From: Acidobacteriota bacterium
Lineage (GTDB): Bacteria > Acidobacteriota > Blastocatellia > Pyrinomonadales > Pyrinomonadaceae
Reading direction: 5' to 3'
Length of the DNA stretch: 35,189 nucleotides
NCBI GenBank assembly: GCA_021323895.1
Contig: JAJPKD010000192.1
Location: 1 to 35,189 of the forward strand
Of the stretch, positions 1 to 7,432 are shown one piece after another. Both the position numbers and the translations under genes were made by a program. Each line of letters starts with the position of its first letter. The first letter of the stretch is position 1. A model generated the notes under the pieces. That model was not told where the DNA came from. It saw only the letters and a program-made list of their open reading frames with translations, and made no database searches.

Positions 1-686
1 GAGACGGGCTGGTAGCCCCAGTAGTTCTTCAGCCCCGCAGGCGCGTCCTGTTCGTCGAATTGAAAGACGGGCATCAACTCGACCGCAGTGACGCCGAGTT
101 TCTGGAGGTACGGAATGTTTTCAATCAAACCGGCGTAGGTGCCACGCCTATCTGGAGCAAGACCGGAACTCGGGTGGCGCGTGAATCCGCCCACGTGCAT
201 TTCATAAATGACGGTCCTTGACCATCGGTGACGGAGCGGCGCATCGCCTTCCCAATCGAATTTGCCGTGGTCAACCACCACGCTTTTCATCGCTGCGGCG
301 GTGTTCTCTCCCGGTGCGCTGGCGGCGCGGCGGCTGTAAGTTGCGGGCACTACAACGCTCTTGCCGTATGGATCGAGAAGAACTTTGCTGGGATCGAAAC
401 GAAAGCCTCTTCCGGGATCGTAGGGGCCGTTGACGCGGTAGCCGTAAATCTGTCCCGCCTGCAGTCCGGGGACAAACACGTGCCAGTAGAAATACGTTCG
501 GTTCTTCGTTGGATCGAGCGAGATCGTGCGCGCCGGGTGTGAATCGTCGGCGCCGTCGAAGAGAAGCAATTCGACCGCCGTAGCGTTTTTGGAATAGACG
601 CTGAAATTCACGCCGTCCGCCTGGCGCGTGGCTCCGAGCGGAAAGCTCTTTCCTTCCACCACACCAACATCCGCCGACTGGCTCAT
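1..686 (-). CDS. glgX: Glycogen debranching enzyme GlgX / isoamylase-type GH13 (partial, N-terminal part)
   Basis: The first 228 codons are present; the 3' end lies beyond the left edge. The product should hydrolyse alpha-1,6 branches left after phosphorylase has shortened glycogen. Translation gives an N-terminal CBM48-like beta-sandwich (about residues 10-110, with GATRQADGVNFSVYSKNA and YGYRVNGPYDPGRGFRFDP). The start of the GH13 barrel follows, with YEMHVGGFT near residue 160, then VTAVELMPV and NYWGYQP, as in GlgX/TreX proteins. The ATG at 684-686 lies 4 nt after the phosphorylase stop, so the two are almost certainly co-transcribed and probably translationally coupled. The catalytic residues are outside the window, so activity cannot be judged. 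A maltooligosyltrehalose-type relative is less likely because the CBM48 and YEMHVGGFT spacing fits GlgX. Confidence 0.88.
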   Translation of the reverse strand, partial: MSQSADVGVVEGKSFPLGATRQADGVNFSVYSKNATAVELLLFDGADDSHPARTISLDPTKNRTYFYWHVFVPGLQAGQIYGYRVNGPYDPGRGFRFDPSKVLLDPYGKSVVVPATYSRRAASAPGENTAAAMKSVVVDHGKFDWEGDAPLRHRWSRTVIYEMHVGGFTRHPSSGLAPDRRGTYAGLIENIPYLQKLGVTAVELMPVFQFDEQDAPAGLKNYWGYQPV

Positions 687-690
687 CGCT

Positions 691-3219
691 TCACCGCTGC
701 CACAGGATCTGCGGCGCTTCGAGCGGAATGATGGCCTCCGGGTTGTCTGCGATTACGCGCGCCGTGTAATCCGAAGCGGAGCGCCTCGCGGGTATGCGCA
801 CGCTGTAGAGACAGGTGCCCCCGCTTGACGCTTCCTTGTTCTCGACATTCATGACGTGGCGCTCAACAGGACCGCCCGGCAACGCATCCGCGTAGACCTC
901 GACCTTTACAGAGTCTGGCGAAAGCTCACCGAGATTTACTTGCAGTTGAAACTGATGCTGTCCATCGTTTGTCTCAACTAGCATCTCGCCGATTCGCAAA
1001 TCGGGCCAACGTTCAGCGAGATCCCTTTGCCAATTGATGATGCGCGCGGAAGGCGCGCCATTCTCATGCGAACGGTCGTGGTACATCGACGCGGCGCGCA
1101 AATAATATTTCTCAGTGTACTCGCGCACTGCGCGGTCGGCTGAGTACTGCGGCGTGAGACGCGCCATGCTCTCACGCACATGCGAAATCCATCCGACCGG
1201 AAGCCCGCGCGAATCGCGGTAGTAGAACAGCGGGATGATCTCGTCTTCCAGTTTGGCGTAGAGCGCTTCCGCTTCGGCAGCATCGGACTGTGTATCATCG
1301 AGCTGCTCTTTGCGAATAGCCCAGCCCACACCAGGCTCAAAGGCCTCGGCCCAGCAGCCATCAAGTTCGGACAAATTTATTCCGCCGTTCACGAGCACCT
1401 TCATGCCACTGGTGCCACACGCCTCCCACGGCCGTCGCGGGTTGTTAATCCAGACATCCACGCCGTGCACCATTTGCTCGGTGAGCAGCATGTCATAGTC
1501 AGGCAAGAAAACTGCATGCGGACGCACCTCAGGCCGGCGACGAATGAAGTCCGTCCATTGACGAATCAAAGCCTGACCGGGCTCATCAGCCGGATGAGCC
1601 TTACCCGCAATCAGAACCTGTACCGGACGATGCGGGTTTGTCAGGAGGCGCACCAACCTCTCTGGATCCTGCAGCAGTAGAGTGGGGCGCTTGTAAGTTG
1701 CGAAGCGGCGCGCAAAGCCGAGCGCCAAAACGTTAGGATCTAAGATGCGCGCGGCCTGGTCCACCTCTGCGGCTGGCGCGCCGGACGACGAAAGCGTCCG
1801 GGCAAGCCGGCGGCGACTGAAGTCGACCAGTTGCGCGCGCGCGTTAGATCTCATTTGCCATAGCTCTTCGTCCGACAAACCCCGCATGTGTTCGGTCGCC
1901 TGGCTCTTCGACAATCCCCTCCAGCGATCCTTGCCGCAGGCTTTCTCCCAGAGCTTGTCGGCCTCCGATGAATCCCACGTTGGCACATGCACGCCGTTCG
2001 TTACGTGGCCGATGGGCACTTCGTCCTGAGGCCAGCGGGGAAAGAACGATTGGAAAAGACCACGACTCACGTCCCCATGCAATCGGCTTACGCCGTTGAC
2101 CGCGCCGCTCCCGCGCAGCGCGAGATAAGCCATATTGAATTGTTCCTGGTTATCGTCGGGATGTTCGCGTCCCAACGCCAGCACGTCGCGAAGGCTGACG
2201 TTGACAGCATCGGCGTAAAGGCCCAGATACTTCGCGACCAAATCCGACGGGAAACGATCAAAGCCGGCCGGCACTGCCGTGTGCGTGGTAAAGACGTTGC
2301 CCGCACGAGTCGCAGCGAGCGCAACTTCGAAGGGTTGCCCAGTCTCCATCATAAAAGTGCGCGCGCGTGCCAGCACCGCAAACGCCGCGTGGCCTTCGTT
2401 AAGATGACAAACTTCAGGGCGATACCCGATCTGGTTCAGCAATCGCCAACCACCGACACCCAGCACGATCTCCTGTAACAGACGCGTCTCCGGGCCGCCC
2501 CCATAAAGTTCGCTCGTGATACCGCGATGGAACGGTGGGTTCGCAGGATCGTTTGTGTCGAGCAGGTACAGCGTCGCACGGCCCACCCGTGCCTGCCAGG
2601 CGCGAACCCACACACTGTATCCCGGCAGCATGAACTTGAGACGCACCCACTCGCCATCCTTGTCCCGCACCGGCATGATTGGCAGCAGCCCCGGATCGTT
2701 GTACGGGTAGAGCGCTCGCTGCGCGCCATCCGCATCCAAAACCTGGCGAAAATATCCTCGTTGATACAACAGTCCTACGCCGACGACGGGCACACCGAGA
2801 TCGCTCGCGGCCTTTAGTTGATCCCCAGCAACATTGCCTAGACCGCCTGAGTAAATCGGCAGCGCCTCGCTCAACATGAACTCCATGCTGAAGTAGGCGA
2901 TGCAACTCAAGCGCGATTGCGCATGCTTCTGCTGAAACCAGGTGTTCGCCTGCATTTGTTCCTGCTTGGCGCGCGCAGCATCATCCACCTTGCGCCGGTA
3001 GTCCGGGTCGGACATCAATGACTTCAGCTTTTAAAGCGAGACAGTCAGCAGGACAACCCAGGGATTGTGGGTCAACTCCCAAAGTTCTGGGTCCAGTGGT
3101 TCCCACAACTCTTCCTCACCATGGCTCCACGACCAGCGCAAATTGAGCGCCAGATCGACCAGTGTGTCGAACCCGTCGACGTCGGACTTGAGCCAAATGG
3201 AGTGTGCTTGGTCGGGCAT
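691..3219 (-). pseudogene. glgP: Alpha-glucan (glycogen) phosphorylase, GT35, interrupted by an in-frame stop
   Basis: This family releases glucose-1-phosphate from glycogen using PLP. The first 62 codons (from ATG 3217-3219, with AGGAG 5 nt upstream) encode LALNLRWSWSHGEEELW and PELWELTHNPWVVLLTVSL, the usual N-terminus of the roughly 850-residue GlgP subfamily. A TAA follows at 3031-3033. The same frame then continues without any shift: KLKSLMSDPDYRRKVDD, YFSMEFMLSEALPIYSGGLG, HLNEGHAAF, and the PLP-lysine region EACGTSGMKVLVNGG (Lys near 606 of the uninterrupted frame), to TGA at 691-693. Relatives have a sense codon, often Glu, where TAA stands (TVSREKL-like). A shorter product could start at TTG 3016-3018 but would lack the N-terminus. 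A point nonsense mutation or a base-call error are both possible. The gene sits between the nucleotidyltransferase and glgX in one operon. Confidence 0.88.
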
Positions 3220-3227
3220 ATTTTCTC

Positions 3228-4223
3228 CTAGTGCACGGTCGCAAGATTTCCAAACGAGGGCATGGTCTGATGCGGCGACGATACCGGCCAGTCGAGTCGC
3301 GACGGTTTAGTACGGCGAATTTCGCGCAGCCAATCTGGTTCGATCTGATGGCGATCCAGCGTTTCAATCACGCGTTGAGGATTCCCTAAATCCGCCCAAC
3401 CTGACGCGCTGTCTTCTACAACAAGAAGATTACTCGCGTCCAGGCTCAAGACGTCCTTCGAAAAATCGATCGTGTCCATCTCATGATAGACCGTCTCCAA
3501 ATCTCCAGCCGCCAACGCATCTGAAATTACTTCCACGGCGCTTACCAGTCTGGTGCTCAACAATTCGAGAAACGCGCCGGCACGACCGAGGGTCACGAAC
3601 GTATTCCACAGCCCACCCTGCCTCATCAATTCGTGAGCTTCATGGAGCGGTGGCTTCTCGCAGAAACGATTCACGCCGAAGACAGGCGTGCCACTTCCGT
3701 TTCCTAATGGGGCACCGGGTTGGATCCACCCGTATTCGACTTCGGGCGATAGCGGTTTTGCTCCTATCAGAACGATCGATTCATTGTGTTTGGCGCTAAC
3801 TTCGATTCCTCTTCGAACTGTCGCCGCAAACGCCTCGTCATCAGTGTAGTAGTGGTCTGATGGAAACAGCCCGACGATAGCATCGCGTTCCTCGTTGCAA
3901 ACCTGTAGCAACGCCGCGATGATCGCCACGCCAGTTCCGCGATTCGCAGGCTGCTCCAGTAAACGTGAACGATCGACGTCGGCCAGTTCTGCTGTGTAGA
4001 AACTGTCGTGGCCCTTCGTAACAACGAACATTATTCGGTCGTCTGAGAATACTGGTCGTAAGCGCTCCCGCGTATGACCCAGCAAAGTTCGGCTGCCGAA
4101 AATCTTGCTGAATTGTTTTGGTCTCGCATCTCCGTCGATCTTGCGTGTCAGGCTTTGAAGCCGGCTTCCTTCCCCGCCGGCCAGCACGATTGCCCACGGC
4201 TGTTCCGCATCTTTTCTAGGCAT
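3228..4223 (-). CDS. Sugar-phosphate nucleotidyltransferase (mannose-1-phosphate guanylyltransferase-like)
   Basis: A 331-residue protein of the NTP-transferase fold that would activate a sugar-1-phosphate with an NTP in the cytoplasm. The signature loop AIVLAGGEGSRLQSLTRK is at residues 11-28, and ARPKQF at 33-38 is typical of GDP-mannose pyrophosphorylases. QPANRGTG and the metal-binding FPSDHYY follow. The C-terminal left-handed beta-helix or isomerase domain of ManC is absent, so the substrate is uncertain. The ATG at 4221-4223 is preferred over an in-frame GTG at 4251-4253: it overlaps the upstream stop as ATGA and has AGAAGG about 10 nt before it. Its TAG is part of the glgP ribosome-binding site (TAGGAG), so translation of the two is linked. 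Placement before glgP and glgX suggests a role in glucan or sugar-nucleotide turnover under the upstream sigma-54 promoter. Confidence 0.85.
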   Translation of the reverse strand: MPRKDAEQPWAIVLAGGEGSRLQSLTRKIDGDARPKQFSKIFGSRTLLGHTRERLRPVFSDDRIMFVVTKGHDSFYTAELADVDRSRLLEQPANRGTGVAIIAALLQVCNEERDAIVGLFPSDHYYTDDEAFAATVRRGIEVSAKHNESIVLIGAKPLSPEVEYGWIQPGAPLGNGSGTPVFGVNRFCEKPPLHEAHELMRQGGLWNTFVTLGRAGAFLELLSTRLVSAVEVISDALAAGDLETVYHEMDTIDFSKDVLSLDASNLLVVEDSASGWADLGNPQRVIETLDRHQIEPDWLREIRRTKPSRLDWPVSSPHQTMPSFGNLATVH

Positions 4224-4438
4224 CAAGCCCACCTTCTTTGTTCCGACAACCACTGTTGCAACAGAGCTTCACGTAGAATGACGCCGGCATCATCTTCAAA
4301 GCGCCTGAGGTGATCAGCAATTAACCACGCGCGGCGGAACCCTTGCGCGCGCAGGATCCGACGATTCCCTTGCGGCTTCCTCGGCACCGCAGGTACGTCG
4401 GCGGTCCCAAACATCTTGGTGTTGGAGTGTGCGCTCAT
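4223..4438 (-). CDS. Small hypothetical protein, 71 aa
   Basis: I do not recognise a family. The frame starts at ATG 4436-4438 with AGGTGA about 8 nt upstream, and ends in a TGA that overlaps the next ATG by the ATGA arrangement (4221-4225). That strongly suggests it is translated and coupled to the nucleotidyltransferase. The first 35 residues are polar and probably unstructured. The second half (FRRAWLIADHLRRFEDD and ILREALLQQWLSEQRRW) reads as two amphipathic helices rich in Arg, Leu and Trp. It has no signal peptide and no cysteines. It is the second gene of the sigma-54-driven operon, 24 nt after the preceding small gene. A regulatory or scaffolding role for the enzymes downstream would be a guess. 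Confidence 0.6.
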   Translation of the reverse strand: MSAHSNTKMFGTADVPAVPRKPQGNRRILRAQGFRRAWLIADHLRRFEDDAGVILREALLQQWLSEQRRWA

Positions 4439-4462
4439 AGTCTTCACCTGCCGGTTACGCTT

Positions 4463-4702
4463 TCAATGCACTCTCGCCAACCGCTGCGTTCTTTCTTCGC
4501 CGCGAATACCAATCGAGCGAATTAACGCGTGAGCCGCCGTTTGCAGTTGGGCCTTTCGCTCATGCCAGTCTGCGACCCACGTCTTTACCGTTTCCACATT
4601 TTCGCGCTCGATTTGACGATCAGTTTTAGTAGTTGGCTTAGCAGAGATGCCGTTCATGACTTTTCCTGTCCCGCGCTTTATGATTCTGATTCGTGCTTGC
4701 AT
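4463..4702 (-). CDS. Small hypothetical protein, 79 aa, first gene of the glucan operon
   Basis: No named family recognised. The start chosen is ATG 4700-4702, with GGAG 8-11 nt upstream (GGAGTGAACGACATG); a longer frame upstream has no ribosome-binding site and would reach into the promoter. The protein begins with a short basic beta-like stretch (MQARIRIIKRGTGKV), followed by a polar linker and a long charged helix (about residues 30-70, ERENVETVKTWVADWHERK and AAHALIRSIG). This looks like a small cytosolic, possibly coiled-coil protein. It is the promoter-proximal gene of the operon leading to the nucleotidyltransferase, glgP and glgX, about 45 nt after the predicted sigma-54 transcription start. 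Base composition resembles the neighbours, so recent transfer is not suggested. Confidence 0.65.
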   Translation of the reverse strand: MQARIRIIKRGTGKVMNGISAKPTTKTDRQIERENVETVKTWVADWHERKAQLQTAAHALIRSIGIRGEERTQRLARVH

Positions 4703-4757: not shown

Positions 4758-4774
4758 AGCAACCGCCTTGCCAC
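4758..4774 (-). promoter_or_regulatory. Sigma-54 (-24/-12) promoter of the glucan operon
   Basis: On the minus strand the sequence reads TGGCAA-GGCGG-TTGCT, which matches the TGGCAC-N5-TTGCw consensus with the invariant GG and GC correctly spaced. The predicted transcription start is near 4747, about 45 nt before the ATG at 4702. A tandem operator-like element lies about 100 nt upstream (4869-4902), the usual place for an enhancer-binding protein. Confidence 0.72.
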
Positions 4775-4868
4775 GAAGCGTTAGCCTCGACTCGGTCTTA
4801 CTTCGCATAGATTCTTAACAAAGAACGTGATTTTCGGATTTCGCTGCGATGCAGAAGTAAAGTGGGAG

Positions 4869-4902
4869 TTCGTAATTCTCTGAAGACTTCGTGATATTAC
4901 GA
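4869..4902. promoter_or_regulatory. Operator-like element, copy 1 (putative enhancer-binding-protein site)
   Basis: Two half-elements, CGTAATTCTC and CGTGATATTACG, are about 19-20 nt apart, so they face the same side of the helix. The right one is nearly palindromic (TCGTgATATtACGA). The left half is shared base for base with copy 2 (GTAATTCTCTGA). It lies between the end of the htrA-like gene and the sigma-54 promoter at 4758-4774. Confidence 0.6.
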
Positions 4903-4919
4903 GTCGTAGTTTCGACAAT

Positions 4920-5990
4920 TCACTGTTCAATGGTCGTCGTCAGCCTTATCACCTTGCCTGCGCGCAAGACTTTCAGAACAACCGGGTCTCCCGGCTTGAG
5001 GCTGGAGATGCTATTGAAGATGCGGTCGTAGTTATCACCTCGTGCGAGCGCGACCGATTCAACTGCCGTTGGTGCGCTAACATCAAGATCGTTGACACTT
5101 AGGATTACGTCGCCGCCGAGCAGCACCTCTGTGCCCTGAATTGTTACCTGAAAGGTCCCACCGTTCATCCCAAGGCGCGAGCCGAACGATCCCTCGCCGA
5201 TACGTTGGACCAGAAAGCCGGAGGGCTGAGGCAGGTTCAACGCCTTGGCAAAGTCTCCAGTCACTAAGACCCCATCGATGCCCGACCAAAACGGCTTGCG
5301 GTCCAGCAGGAATCGCTTCGCCGTATTCGAAGCGGTGGCGAATGCTAAACCTTCTGAGCCCCCTGATTGGCTCATGATCGTGGTAACTATTCCCACTACC
5401 TGACCGTTCATATCGAACATGGGACTTCCGGAGTTGCCGCCGTTTACTGCCGCATCGGTTTGGAGAAACTCGATATATGGCTGAGGCTCGCCGTCTTTAT
5501 CAACTTGGCGCCGCCCGCTCACGTGACCTGCGGTTAAGGTTTGGCTGATGCCATAAGGCGCGCCGATTACAAATATCTGATCGCCGACTTCCACCTTGGT
5601 AGAATCGCCCAGAGCCACCGGGCTGATGCCTTTTGGCAGTTCTTGCAGTTGCAGCAAAGCGACATCGGCTCGCACGTCAGACGTAATTACGCGCGCGATG
5701 CTGTTCTGGCCGTCGGGGAATTCCACGAGAGCCGCATCGGCGGTCTGCACCACGTGCGCGGCCGTCAACACTTTGCCGTCGTTTGAAATGAGGACTCCCG
5801 AGCCGAGGCCATCAACGATAGACATCACCTGTCCGGGCTTGGGCGCGAGATCGACCCTTTTGGTCCTGACGGTTACAACCGATTGATTGACTTTGCGAAA
5901 GGCCTCCCGAAGCTGTTGGGCAGGTGCAGCGGTATATATGGCCATCATTAGCAAGCTTGCTAAGAACATTAGTCCAGTTCTAGTTTTCAT
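4920..5990 (-). CDS. HtrA/DegP-like periplasmic serine protease (S1C) with PDZ domain
   Basis: A 356-residue exported protease expected to degrade or refold misfolded envelope proteins. It has an N-terminal signal peptide (residues 1-24, cleavage likely after APA). The trypsin-like domain carries a full triad: His79 in TAAHVV, Asp109 in RADVALLQL and Ser187 in NGGNSGSP. A C-terminal PDZ domain spans about 245-350 (GSFGSRLGMNGG, LLGGDVILSVNDLDV, LKPGDPVVLKVLRAGK). Family members are usually 350-480 residues, so this is a one-PDZ, DegS-like length, but the signal peptide looks cleavable. The start at ATG 5988-5990 has AGGAGG 10 nt upstream. A sigma-54 promoter (6046-6062) and operator copy 2 lie upstream, so it appears to be a single-gene unit controlled like its neighbours, fitting an envelope-stress function. 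Confidence 0.92.
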   Translation of the reverse strand: MKTRTGLMFLASLLMMAIYTAAPAQQLREAFRKVNQSVVTVRTKRVDLAPKPGQVMSIVDGLGSGVLISNDGKVLTAAHVVQTADAALVEFPDGQNSIARVITSDVRADVALLQLQELPKGISPVALGDSTKVEVGDQIFVIGAPYGISQTLTAGHVSGRRQVDKDGEPQPYIEFLQTDAAVNGGNSGSPMFDMNGQVVGIVTTIMSQSGGSEGLAFATASNTAKRFLLDRKPFWSGIDGVLVTGDFAKALNLPQPSGFLVQRIGEGSFGSRLGMNGGTFQVTIQGTEVLLGGDVILSVNDLDVSAPTAVESVALARGDNYDRIFNSISSLKPGDPVVLKVLRAGKVIRLTTTIEQ

Positions 5991-6045
5991 CGTTCATCAG
6001 CCTCCTCACAATTTGCCGTGCGTCGACGGCGCGCAAGGACTGAAG

Positions 6046-6062
6046 CGCAACAAGCGTTCCAA
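6046..6062 (-). promoter_or_regulatory. Sigma-54 promoter of the htrA-like gene
   Basis: The minus strand reads TTGGAAC-GCTTG-TTGCG, with GG and GC at the correct -24/-12 spacing and one deviation in the TGGCAC box. The predicted start near 6035 gives a leader of about 45 nt to the ATG at 5990. Operator copy 2 is about 150-200 nt upstream. Confidence 0.68.
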
Positions 6063-6214
6063 GCTTTAGTCAGCTCACCCACAACGCAATAACGGAAAGA
6101 CCCGAAGTTCCAATCGCCAGCCAAAGCCCAGAAAAACTACGAGTTCTCGTCGTTGCGCGGTCGGGCTAGCGCGGTCAGTCGGTATTCAGTTGTGGTTGCA
6201 CAGGCAGAGAAGGA

Positions 6215-6250
6215 ATTCGTAATTCTCTGATGACCTTCGTGAAATTATGA
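6215..6250. promoter_or_regulatory. Operator-like element, copy 2
   Basis: It starts with TTCGTAATTCTCTGA, identical to copy 1 except that the following bases are TGACC rather than AGAC. It ends with CTTCGTGAAATTATGA, close to copy 3 (CTTCGTGAAATCACGA). It lies between the STAS gene stop (6282) and the sigma-54 promoter of the protease. The length and two-part layout match copies 1 and 3. Confidence 0.6.
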
Positions 6251-6281
6251 TGCTTCCGATGGTTGATTGCGGCTTGGGAGG

Positions 6282-6581
6282 TCACTCTTGGCGGGGCTTG
6301 ATAGAGGTGGCGCCATTGCCGGCTTCCTGTTCAATCCAGCGCTTCACCCAGGAAGGAAGATGGCAGAGCTTGATTTTCCTCGATTGAGCGACGCGGAGAA
6401 ATTCCATCGCCGATCGATCTACGAAGGTAACATTCATCAGGTCGAGTGCGTGTGTCTTCGATCCGTTACCATTCTGGCCCACTGCCTTCTCAACTTCAGG
6501 AACATACTCACTGGTGAAATGGCCGCTAAGGCTTACTCTCACAATCTCGGGATTTTCGTTTTCTTGCGTAATCTTCAACAT
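6282..6581 (-). CDS. STAS-domain protein (anti-sigma-factor-antagonist-like)
   Basis: A 99-residue single-domain protein. The core ALDLMNVTFVDRSAMEFLRVA (residues 45-65) matches the STAS fold of SpoIIAA/RsbV proteins. Ser57 is in the position of the serine phosphorylated by anti-sigma kinases (usual motif VDSSGL; here VDRSAM, so the Gly after Ser is Ala). The tail KLCHLPSWVKRWIEQE is more hydrophobic than in typical antagonists, so a partner other than a sigma-factor kinase is possible. The start at ATG 6579-6581 has GAGGAG 10 nt upstream. A sigma-54 promoter 40-55 nt before the start and the shared regulatory segment place it in the same control network as the protease and the glucan operon. 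No partner kinase or phosphatase is encoded in this window. Confidence 0.8.
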   Translation of the reverse strand: MLKITQENENPEIVRVSLSGHFTSEYVPEVEKAVGQNGNGSKTHALDLMNVTFVDRSAMEFLRVAQSRKIKLCHLPSWVKRWIEQEAGNGATSIKPRQE

Positions 6582-6619
6582 CTTTTTAGCACTCCTCGCA
6601 TGTCATCAAGAGGCTAATG

Positions 6620-6636
6620 GGCACGTCGTGTGCCAT
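6620..6636 (-). promoter_or_regulatory. Sigma-54 promoter of the STAS gene
   Basis: The minus strand reads TGGCAC-ACGAC-GTGCC: a perfect -24 box and a -12 box with one mismatch but the invariant GC retained. The predicted start near 6609 leaves a 28-nt leader that contains the GAGGAG ribosome-binding site. The nearest operator copy (6997-7032) is about 400 nt upstream, farther than for the other promoters. Confidence 0.6.
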
Positions 6637-6639
6637 GGC

Positions 6640-6996
6640 AGTTGCGAATTTCATTTCCGAATCCGCCTTCGTCGTTGTCAAGAATTTACTGATTAATCGC
6701 TTATTGCTCGGCCGGGCAACTGATGCTCCAACTCCTGCTCCAACGTGATAAAGCGATGAAAACTTATCAGGCGGACGCTCAGCAAAAAGAAAATGAATCT
6801 CCGATAAAAAGTTAGTCCCATTGGGTTACCCCCGTTTCTTGTCCCCTCCAAAGCGATTGAGCAATACGCATTCCAGGTTAGGTGATCGAAATCGGCAACA
6901 GGATCGAGAAACACTTCAGTAGGATCAAAAGCGGAATTGAACACGCGGAGAACCGCTCAAAGCCTTAAGGAAACGATTTGACGCAAGGCGTTACCC
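6640..6996. other. Gene-poor spacer between STAS promoter and operator copy 3
   Basis: I see no convincing gene in this stretch. An 83-codon open frame on the minus strand (6693-6944) lacks a ribosome-binding site, has an unusual composition and resembles no family I know. No terminator or riboswitch fold was recognised. It separates two divergent sigma-54 promoters and may simply be a long regulatory spacer. Confidence 0.4.
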
Positions 6997-7032
6997 GGCT
7001 GTGATATCACGGTGAGCTTCGTGAAATCACGA
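6997..7032. promoter_or_regulatory. Operator-like element, copy 3 (two clear palindromes)
   Basis: The clearest copy: GTGATATCAC (7001-7010, a perfect palindrome) and TCGTGAAATCACGA (arms TCGTGA/TCACGA). The repeats are exactly 20 nt apart, two helical turns. It lies about 70-100 nt upstream of the plus-strand sigma-54 promoter at 7100-7116, the classical enhancer distance. Confidence 0.68.
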
Positions 7033-7099
7033 TATGGATCTCCGTCTGGTAAATCACCGTGTTCTGTGTCTGCAAACAGGATCTTCGGCTTGAACTTGG

Positions 7100-7116
7100 A
7101 TGGCATCGGGGTTGCT
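7100..7116 (+). promoter_or_regulatory. Sigma-54 promoter of the zinc-ribbon gene
   Basis: The plus strand reads TGGCAT-CGGGG-TTGCT, with the GG and GC elements in exact register. The predicted start near 7127 precedes the zinc-ribbon frame. With operator copy 3 just upstream, this is the best-formed enhancer-promoter pair in the window. Confidence 0.7.
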
Positions 7117-7193: not shown

Positions 7194-7432
7194 TTGGAGG
7201 GTCAAATCCACAATCAGAGCGTTGATCGGTCACCCATACCGCTCGCGAGGTTCATGACCCGTATCTGCGGAGGCTGGCACGTCCCCATGGGCTGGCCCAT
7301 TACTGCGGGCGGTCAAACGTATCGCGCGTGTTTGGATTGCCGTGCTCGTCGTCGCTCGACTCGGACACTTGGACCACGGATGGCCCATTCTACTTCCAAC
7401 AGCGACCAAATGGATGTCATCTGATAACGTAA
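7194..7432 (+). pseudogene. Small zinc-ribbon protein gene with a one-base frameshift
   Basis: The frame encodes ICGGWHVPMGWPITAGGQTYRACLDCRARRR. This is a CxxxH...CxxC metal-binding pattern of a kind of short protein I associate with Acidobacteriota, where ARR is followed by FD and an aromatic tail. After codon 7353-7355 (CGC) the frame drifts into low-quality sequence and stops at 7424. In the +1 frame the expected tail appears at once (FDSDTWTTDGPFYFQQ...) and runs to TAA at 7430-7432. One base, most simply a T after 7355, therefore seems to be missing. The start is uncertain: TTG 7194 or ATG 7254 (GAGG 3 nt upstream). It is transcribed from the sigma-54 promoter at 7100-7116. The function of the family is unknown to me; zinc binding is inferred from the Cys/His spacing. 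A sequencing error is a real alternative. Confidence 0.6.

Follow-up and report, generated by a model that had tools for sequence, protein, structure and literature searches.

The gene cluster described here probably consists of sigma-54-dependent promoters controlled by one sigma-54 activator (EBP) through paired palindromes, in the service of envelope stress and a fast ATP supply. The window is a complete contig of 35,189 bases (C196) from a 4.4-Mb draft genome, which encodes about 24 such EBPs. Named database records with the zinc-ribbon family, one sharing its protein with a genome of the window's family, assign the window to Pyrinomonadaceae (Blastocatellia, Acidobacteriota). Putative promoters, dyads, conserved synteny, and linkage to an EBP gene are all read from the sequence; the genes of the window are probably switched on together by a regulator encoded beside the recurring enhancer.

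Predicted sigma-54 promoters and genes of the window

Promoters were scored at the 12 specified positions of TGGCACGN4TTGCW, with the GG/GC core required and shuffled sequences as background. The initial annotation had placed four sigma-54 promoters at 4758, 6046, and 6620 on the minus strand and at 7100-7116 on the plus strand, and GG-N10-GC elements occupy all four places, with scores of 11, 10, 9, and 10 of 12, respectively. Three of them reach at least 10/12; the site at 6620 scores only 9/12 by itself and was rescued by comparison with the relative G054, and an additional site at 6860 had been overlooked. The predicted promoters are as follows.

4758..4773, minus strand: sigma-54 promoter A, TGGCAAGGCGGTTGCT, 11/12, upstream of a glycogen-type operon
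6046..6061, minus strand: sigma-54 promoter B, TGGAACGCTTGTTGCG, 10/12, for HtrA; equivalent site in G054
6620..6635, minus strand: sigma-54 promoter C, TGGCACACGACGTGCC, 9/12, 39 bp before the STAS ATG; position conserved in G054
6860..6875, minus strand: sigma-54-like promoter D, TGGAATGCGTATTGCT, 10/12, absent from the initial annotation; shares the enhancer at 7019
7101..7116, plus strand: sigma-54 promoter E, TGGCATCGGGGTTGCT, 10/12, for the zinc-ribbon gene

Four sites of at least 10/12 with the GG/GC core were found in 2.6 kb, compared with 0.19 expected from shuffles, and the whole 35-kb window held eight (one of them 11/12) against about 2.7 expected. GG/GC cores alone are frequent (369 in the window), and the site at 6620, taken alone, is at chance level, as about 1.1 sites of at least 9/12 are expected per 2.6 kb.

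The genes concerned are listed below.

1..685, minus strand: N-terminal part of a glycogen debranching (GlgX-like) protein, named by inspecting the translation; the contig end cuts the gene
691..3221, minus strand: alpha-glucan phosphorylase (TIGR02094), frame interrupted by an in-frame TAA at 3031-3033
3228..4253, minus strand: mannose-1-phosphate guanylyltransferase-like nucleotidyltransferase
4223..4447, minus strand: 74-amino-acid ORF, no family
4463..4702, minus strand: 79-amino-acid protein, first ORF after promoter A, no trusted family
4920..5990, minus strand: HtrA/DegP-type serine protease with PDZ
6282..6581, minus strand: STAS-domain protein (STAS_2, below the Pfam cut-off); G054 orthologue 48% identical
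7194..7424, plus strand: zinc-ribbon-family ORF, family match at 7206-7358, apparent frameshift after CLDCRARR

The element lies 56 nt before the start codon for both promoter A (ATG at 4702) and promoter B (HtrA ATG at 5990), and 39 nt for promoter C (STAS ATG at 6581), and the three minus-strand units carry Shine-Dalgarno-like sequences and start codons 39 to 56 nt past their promoter elements. For promoter E the distance is at least 58 nt, the start of the zinc-ribbon gene being uncertain.

Two of the reading frames are irregular. The TAA of the alpha-glucan phosphorylase lies near the N-terminus, with the frame otherwise unbroken on either side. In the zinc-ribbon ORF, the first Cys is out of position, and beyond CLDCRARR the C-terminal family motif (DTWTTDGPFYF) resumes in a different frame. 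Because of this stop codon and the apparent frameshift, parts of the predicted regulon may be damaged in the strain or in the assembly.

Paired enhancer-like dyads and their recurrence in relatives

An enhancer-like palindrome, TCGTRAWWTYACGA, occurs in tandem, about 20 bp apart, 68 to 175 bp upstream of four of the window promoters.

4869..4902, no strand: tandem dyads A, strong TCGTGATATTACGA at 4889-4902 and a weaker one at 4869-4883; offset 19 bp
6216..6250, no strand: tandem dyads B, TCGTGAAATTATGA at 6237-6250 and a weaker one at 6216-6230; offset 20 bp
6999..7032, no strand: tandem dyads D/E, perfect TCGTGAAATCACGA at 7019-7032 and a weaker one at 6999-7012; between the divergent promoters at 6860 (minus) and 7101 (plus)

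Read toward the promoter, dyads A run TCGTAATATCACGA-AGTCT-TCAGAGAATTACGA, dyads B run TCATAATTTCACGA-AGGTCA-TCAGAGAATTACGA, and dyads D/E run TCGTGATTTCACGA-AGCTCA-CCGTGATATCACAG. Dyad pairs spaced 19 to 20 bp apart (about two helical turns) upstream of a -24/-12 element have the layout of an EBP enhancer. Promoter C has no dyad within 200 bp; the site at 6860 has one.

The window holds four dyad-promoter modules, compared with 0.033 per 35 kb for shuffled sequence; since the dyad consensus was partly derived from the window sites, this count is not fully independent. None was found in 105 kb of other loci of the same genome. That derivation weighs less on the counts from the EBP loci and from G054, G093, and G096. 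In its relaxed form, the dyad has six occurrences in the window's own genome, three of them within the window; a further one is flanked by an EBP gene and a TonB/Oar-type gene that has its own sigma-54 site. Other one-mismatch matches in this genome were set aside; lacking a suitable sigma-54 site within 200 bp, they look fortuitous. Most of the 99 family genomes showed no enrichment of the exact TCGTGANNTCACGA, and the regulon would thus be patchy across the family.

In G054, which belongs to another genus, the STAS-HtrA gene pair is kept, each gene with a sigma-54 site and dyads. The site at 6620 had first been dropped as noise and was reinstated because the orthologous STAS gene is preceded, at the matching position, by an 11/12 site (TGGCACGCGGCATGCT), 40 bp from its start versus 39 bp in the window; TCGTAAATTCACGA follows 91 bp further upstream. 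The HtrA gene of G054 is preceded by the sigma-54 site CGGAACGTCGGTTGCA together with TCATGATTTCACGA and TCGTTATATGACGA as tandem dyads. G096 has two divergent sigma-54 sites with a perfect dyad in between. One site faces an ECF sigma gene; the other (11/12) faces a zinc-ribbon gene, after which transaldolase, phosphoketolase, phosphoglucose isomerase, and esterase genes continue on the same strand. The order in G093 is EBP gene, dyads, VWA gene, tandem dyads, sigma-54 site, and ECF sigma gene.

More distant STAS homologues also have a site of at least 10/12 just upstream, in each of four genomes. Among STAS homologues, three loci from three genomes (L150, L151, and L152) have nearly identical upstream sigma-54 sites, TGGCACTCAGCGTGCA or, in L150, TGGCACTTGGCGTGCA. 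At zinc-ribbon loci of public genomes, the coding strand carried an upstream sigma-54 site of at least 10/12 in 7 of 32 cases, against 0.19 expected; four of these sites are perfect (12/12). None of the 32 had such a site on the reverse strand. Perfect 12/12 promoters precede zinc-ribbon paralogues at the Pyrinomonadaceae loci L101, L102, L103, and L109, which are without the TCGTGANNTCACGA dyad. A common enhancer was sought upstream of the 12/12 zinc-ribbon promoters of other Pyrinomonadaceae and was not found, so these promoters may answer to other EBPs.

The glycogen unit behind promoter A behaved differently from the others: no sigma-54/dyad module was found with its homologues in relatives. 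A DNA-level search for the whole cluster in relatives returned HtrA fragments only. Of two HtrA copies in G001, one has sigma-54 sites without the consensus dyad and the other has neither.

Taken against the initial annotation, sigma-54 control is supported by the excess of 10/12 sites, the conserved sites in relatives, and rpoN, which is present in the genome with the gene split across two contig ends (C169/C129). A shared site for the upstream activator that it called for is likewise supported by the paired dyads preceding A, B, and D/E and by the module counts against shuffles. It had named a lack of GG/GC conservation as a refutation, and the elements are conserved in the orthologous intergenic regions of the STAS, HtrA, and zinc-ribbon genes. 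Its proposal of one regulon is supported for these three genes; the glycogen unit, without a module in relatives, does not share that support.

The candidate activator

In G093, an EBP with GAF, AAA+, and HTH parts has a STAS/TolC pair on one side and two targets marked by dyads (VWA and ECF sigma) on the other. Its full-length orthologue (66%) in the window's own genome, G000:C223:7761-9350, is flanked by two dyad plus sigma-54 modules and a divergent TolC-MFP-RND operon. A sensor-less relative with nearly the same HTH is encoded at C113:17213-18322. The 117 kb around orthologues and relatives of the C223 EBP in four genomes contain 13 modules, where shuffles gave 0.43 (at most 2), and around other EBPs of the window's genome there were none in 68 kb. 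An AAA+ activator with GAFTGA and an HTH, as a sigma-54 EBP regulon requires, is present. The most likely activator is the GAF-AAA+-HTH protein C223:7761-9350 or its relative C113:17213-18322; the activator need not be unique, as two EBPs with similar HTHs could act at the same sites.

A different assignment has to be weighed, namely that the sigma-54 promoters are real but answer to another EBP, for example the C113 pair L076/L077, with the C223 protein being a paralogue that has its own local targets. A perfect dyad and a sigma-54 site do lie beside the two EBPs at the C113 locus, and the HTH of L076 is almost the same as that of the C223 protein. However, the C223 protein is the full-length orthologue of the G093 EBP, which itself stands in a module-rich locus with TolC and STAS, and L077, whose GAFTGA motif reads GAFTVA, may be impaired, so we regard this assignment as possible but rather unlikely. 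Separately, L077 (G000:C113:16229-16729, minus strand) carries this GAFTVA in its sigma-54 contact loop and adjoins the perfect dyad.

Considerably less probable is a reading in which an unrelated regulator, either a repressor or a two-component one, occupies the dyads and the sigma-54 sites work on their own. Operators are often palindromes with a 2-bp spacer, but these dyads co-occur with sigma-54 sites at activator-type distances in several genomes and cluster at EBP genes. That four short GG-N10-GC sites fell into 2.4 kb by coincidence is hardly credible: the 6620 site alone is at chance level and GG/GC cores are abundant, but coincidence is contradicted by the excess of 10/12 sites, the shared dyads, the positions in G054, and the module statistics.

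The proposed regulon and known sigma-54 systems

For control by one EBP through the paired palindromes, the following mechanism is proposed. The EBP would recognize the consensus TTCGTRA-WW-TYACGAA, in two dyads about 20 bp apart, either 40 to 175 bp upstream of a promoter or common to divergent promoters. Bound there as a hexamer, it would loop to sigma-54 RNA polymerase at the -24/-12 element and remodel it with ATP, leading to promoter opening; hexamer binding, looping, and ATP-driven opening are carried over from established EBP biology. The GAF domain may sense the signal. The binding, activation, signal, and physiological role given here are what we infer for this regulon.

The proposed members are the HtrA protease, the STAS protein, the zinc ribbon, TolC/MFP/RND efflux, ECF sigma, and VWA/TonB outer-membrane genes, together with a sugar-breakdown arm of glucan phosphorylase in the window and transaldolase, phosphoketolase, and PGI in a relative. 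Envelope repair and efflux (HtrA, TolC/RND, and ECF sigma) would thereby be coupled to fast sugar breakdown. The theme of energy release and envelope protection had been a guess of the initial annotation, and it is plausible: the module and sugar genes of G096 and the HtrA and RND-efflux neighbors support it independently. Its weak points are the glycogen unit, found with no sigma-54 module in relatives, and the zinc-ribbon and glucan phosphorylase ORFs, which look damaged. On balance, we favor an undescribed Pyrinomonadaceae EBP regulon, in which a GAF-type activator and the TTCGTRAWWTYACGAA enhancer would couple an RND efflux/HtrA/ECF-sigma defense to a glucan phosphorolysis/phosphoketolase switch, with STAS and zinc-ribbon proteins in addition.

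Its predicted architecture is of the usual sigma-54 kind; the enhancer is newly predicted, and the activator is a candidate. The regulon resembles those of the NtrC/PspF/NorR/FhlA type in its -24/-12 elements and paired upstream dyads, in its AAA+ activators with a Fis-type HTH, and in having targets near the activator gene. In the literature searched on EBP regulons, nothing matched its enhancer consensus and targets (HtrA, STAS, zinc ribbon, RND efflux, ECF sigma, and phosphoketolase/glucan breakdown). Our searches also returned no sigma-54 regulon described for Acidobacteriota and nothing matching for sigma-54 with phosphoketolase or HtrA.

The best NCBIfam match of the C223-type EBP is FhlA, aligned through the HTH, at 559.4 bits against a cut-off of 830. 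The upstream activating sequence of FhlA in the formate hydrogenlyase regulon is CATTTCGTACGAAATG (PMC4987338). The half-site TTCGT is common to that sequence and the window dyad, but the FhlA half-sites abut, whereas those of the window dyad are split by GANNTC. FhlA itself was rejected as the identity of the candidate, since the score is below the equivalog cut-off, the UAS spacing differs, and formate and hydrogenase targets are lacking; no formate hydrogenlyase or hydrogenase genes were found at the loci examined. The enterobacterial envelope-stress systems PspF and ZraR also tie a sigma-54 activator to envelope stress (PMC4987338 and general knowledge), as is proposed here. Unlike them, the window regulon would add sugar catabolism, and no psp or zra genes were noticed in the neighborhoods read.

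For Acidobacteriota, there is now a specific predicted enhancer sequence with a candidate activator and a delimited set of genes; through them, a STAS family and a small uncharacterized zinc-ribbon family would be connected with envelope stress and carbon metabolism. In addition, a conserved pair of small secreted-looking proteins, one with DUF4410, was noticed at L036:1678-2744 and L224:3647-4701, with the same enhancer/promoter module and near EBP genes in two genera.
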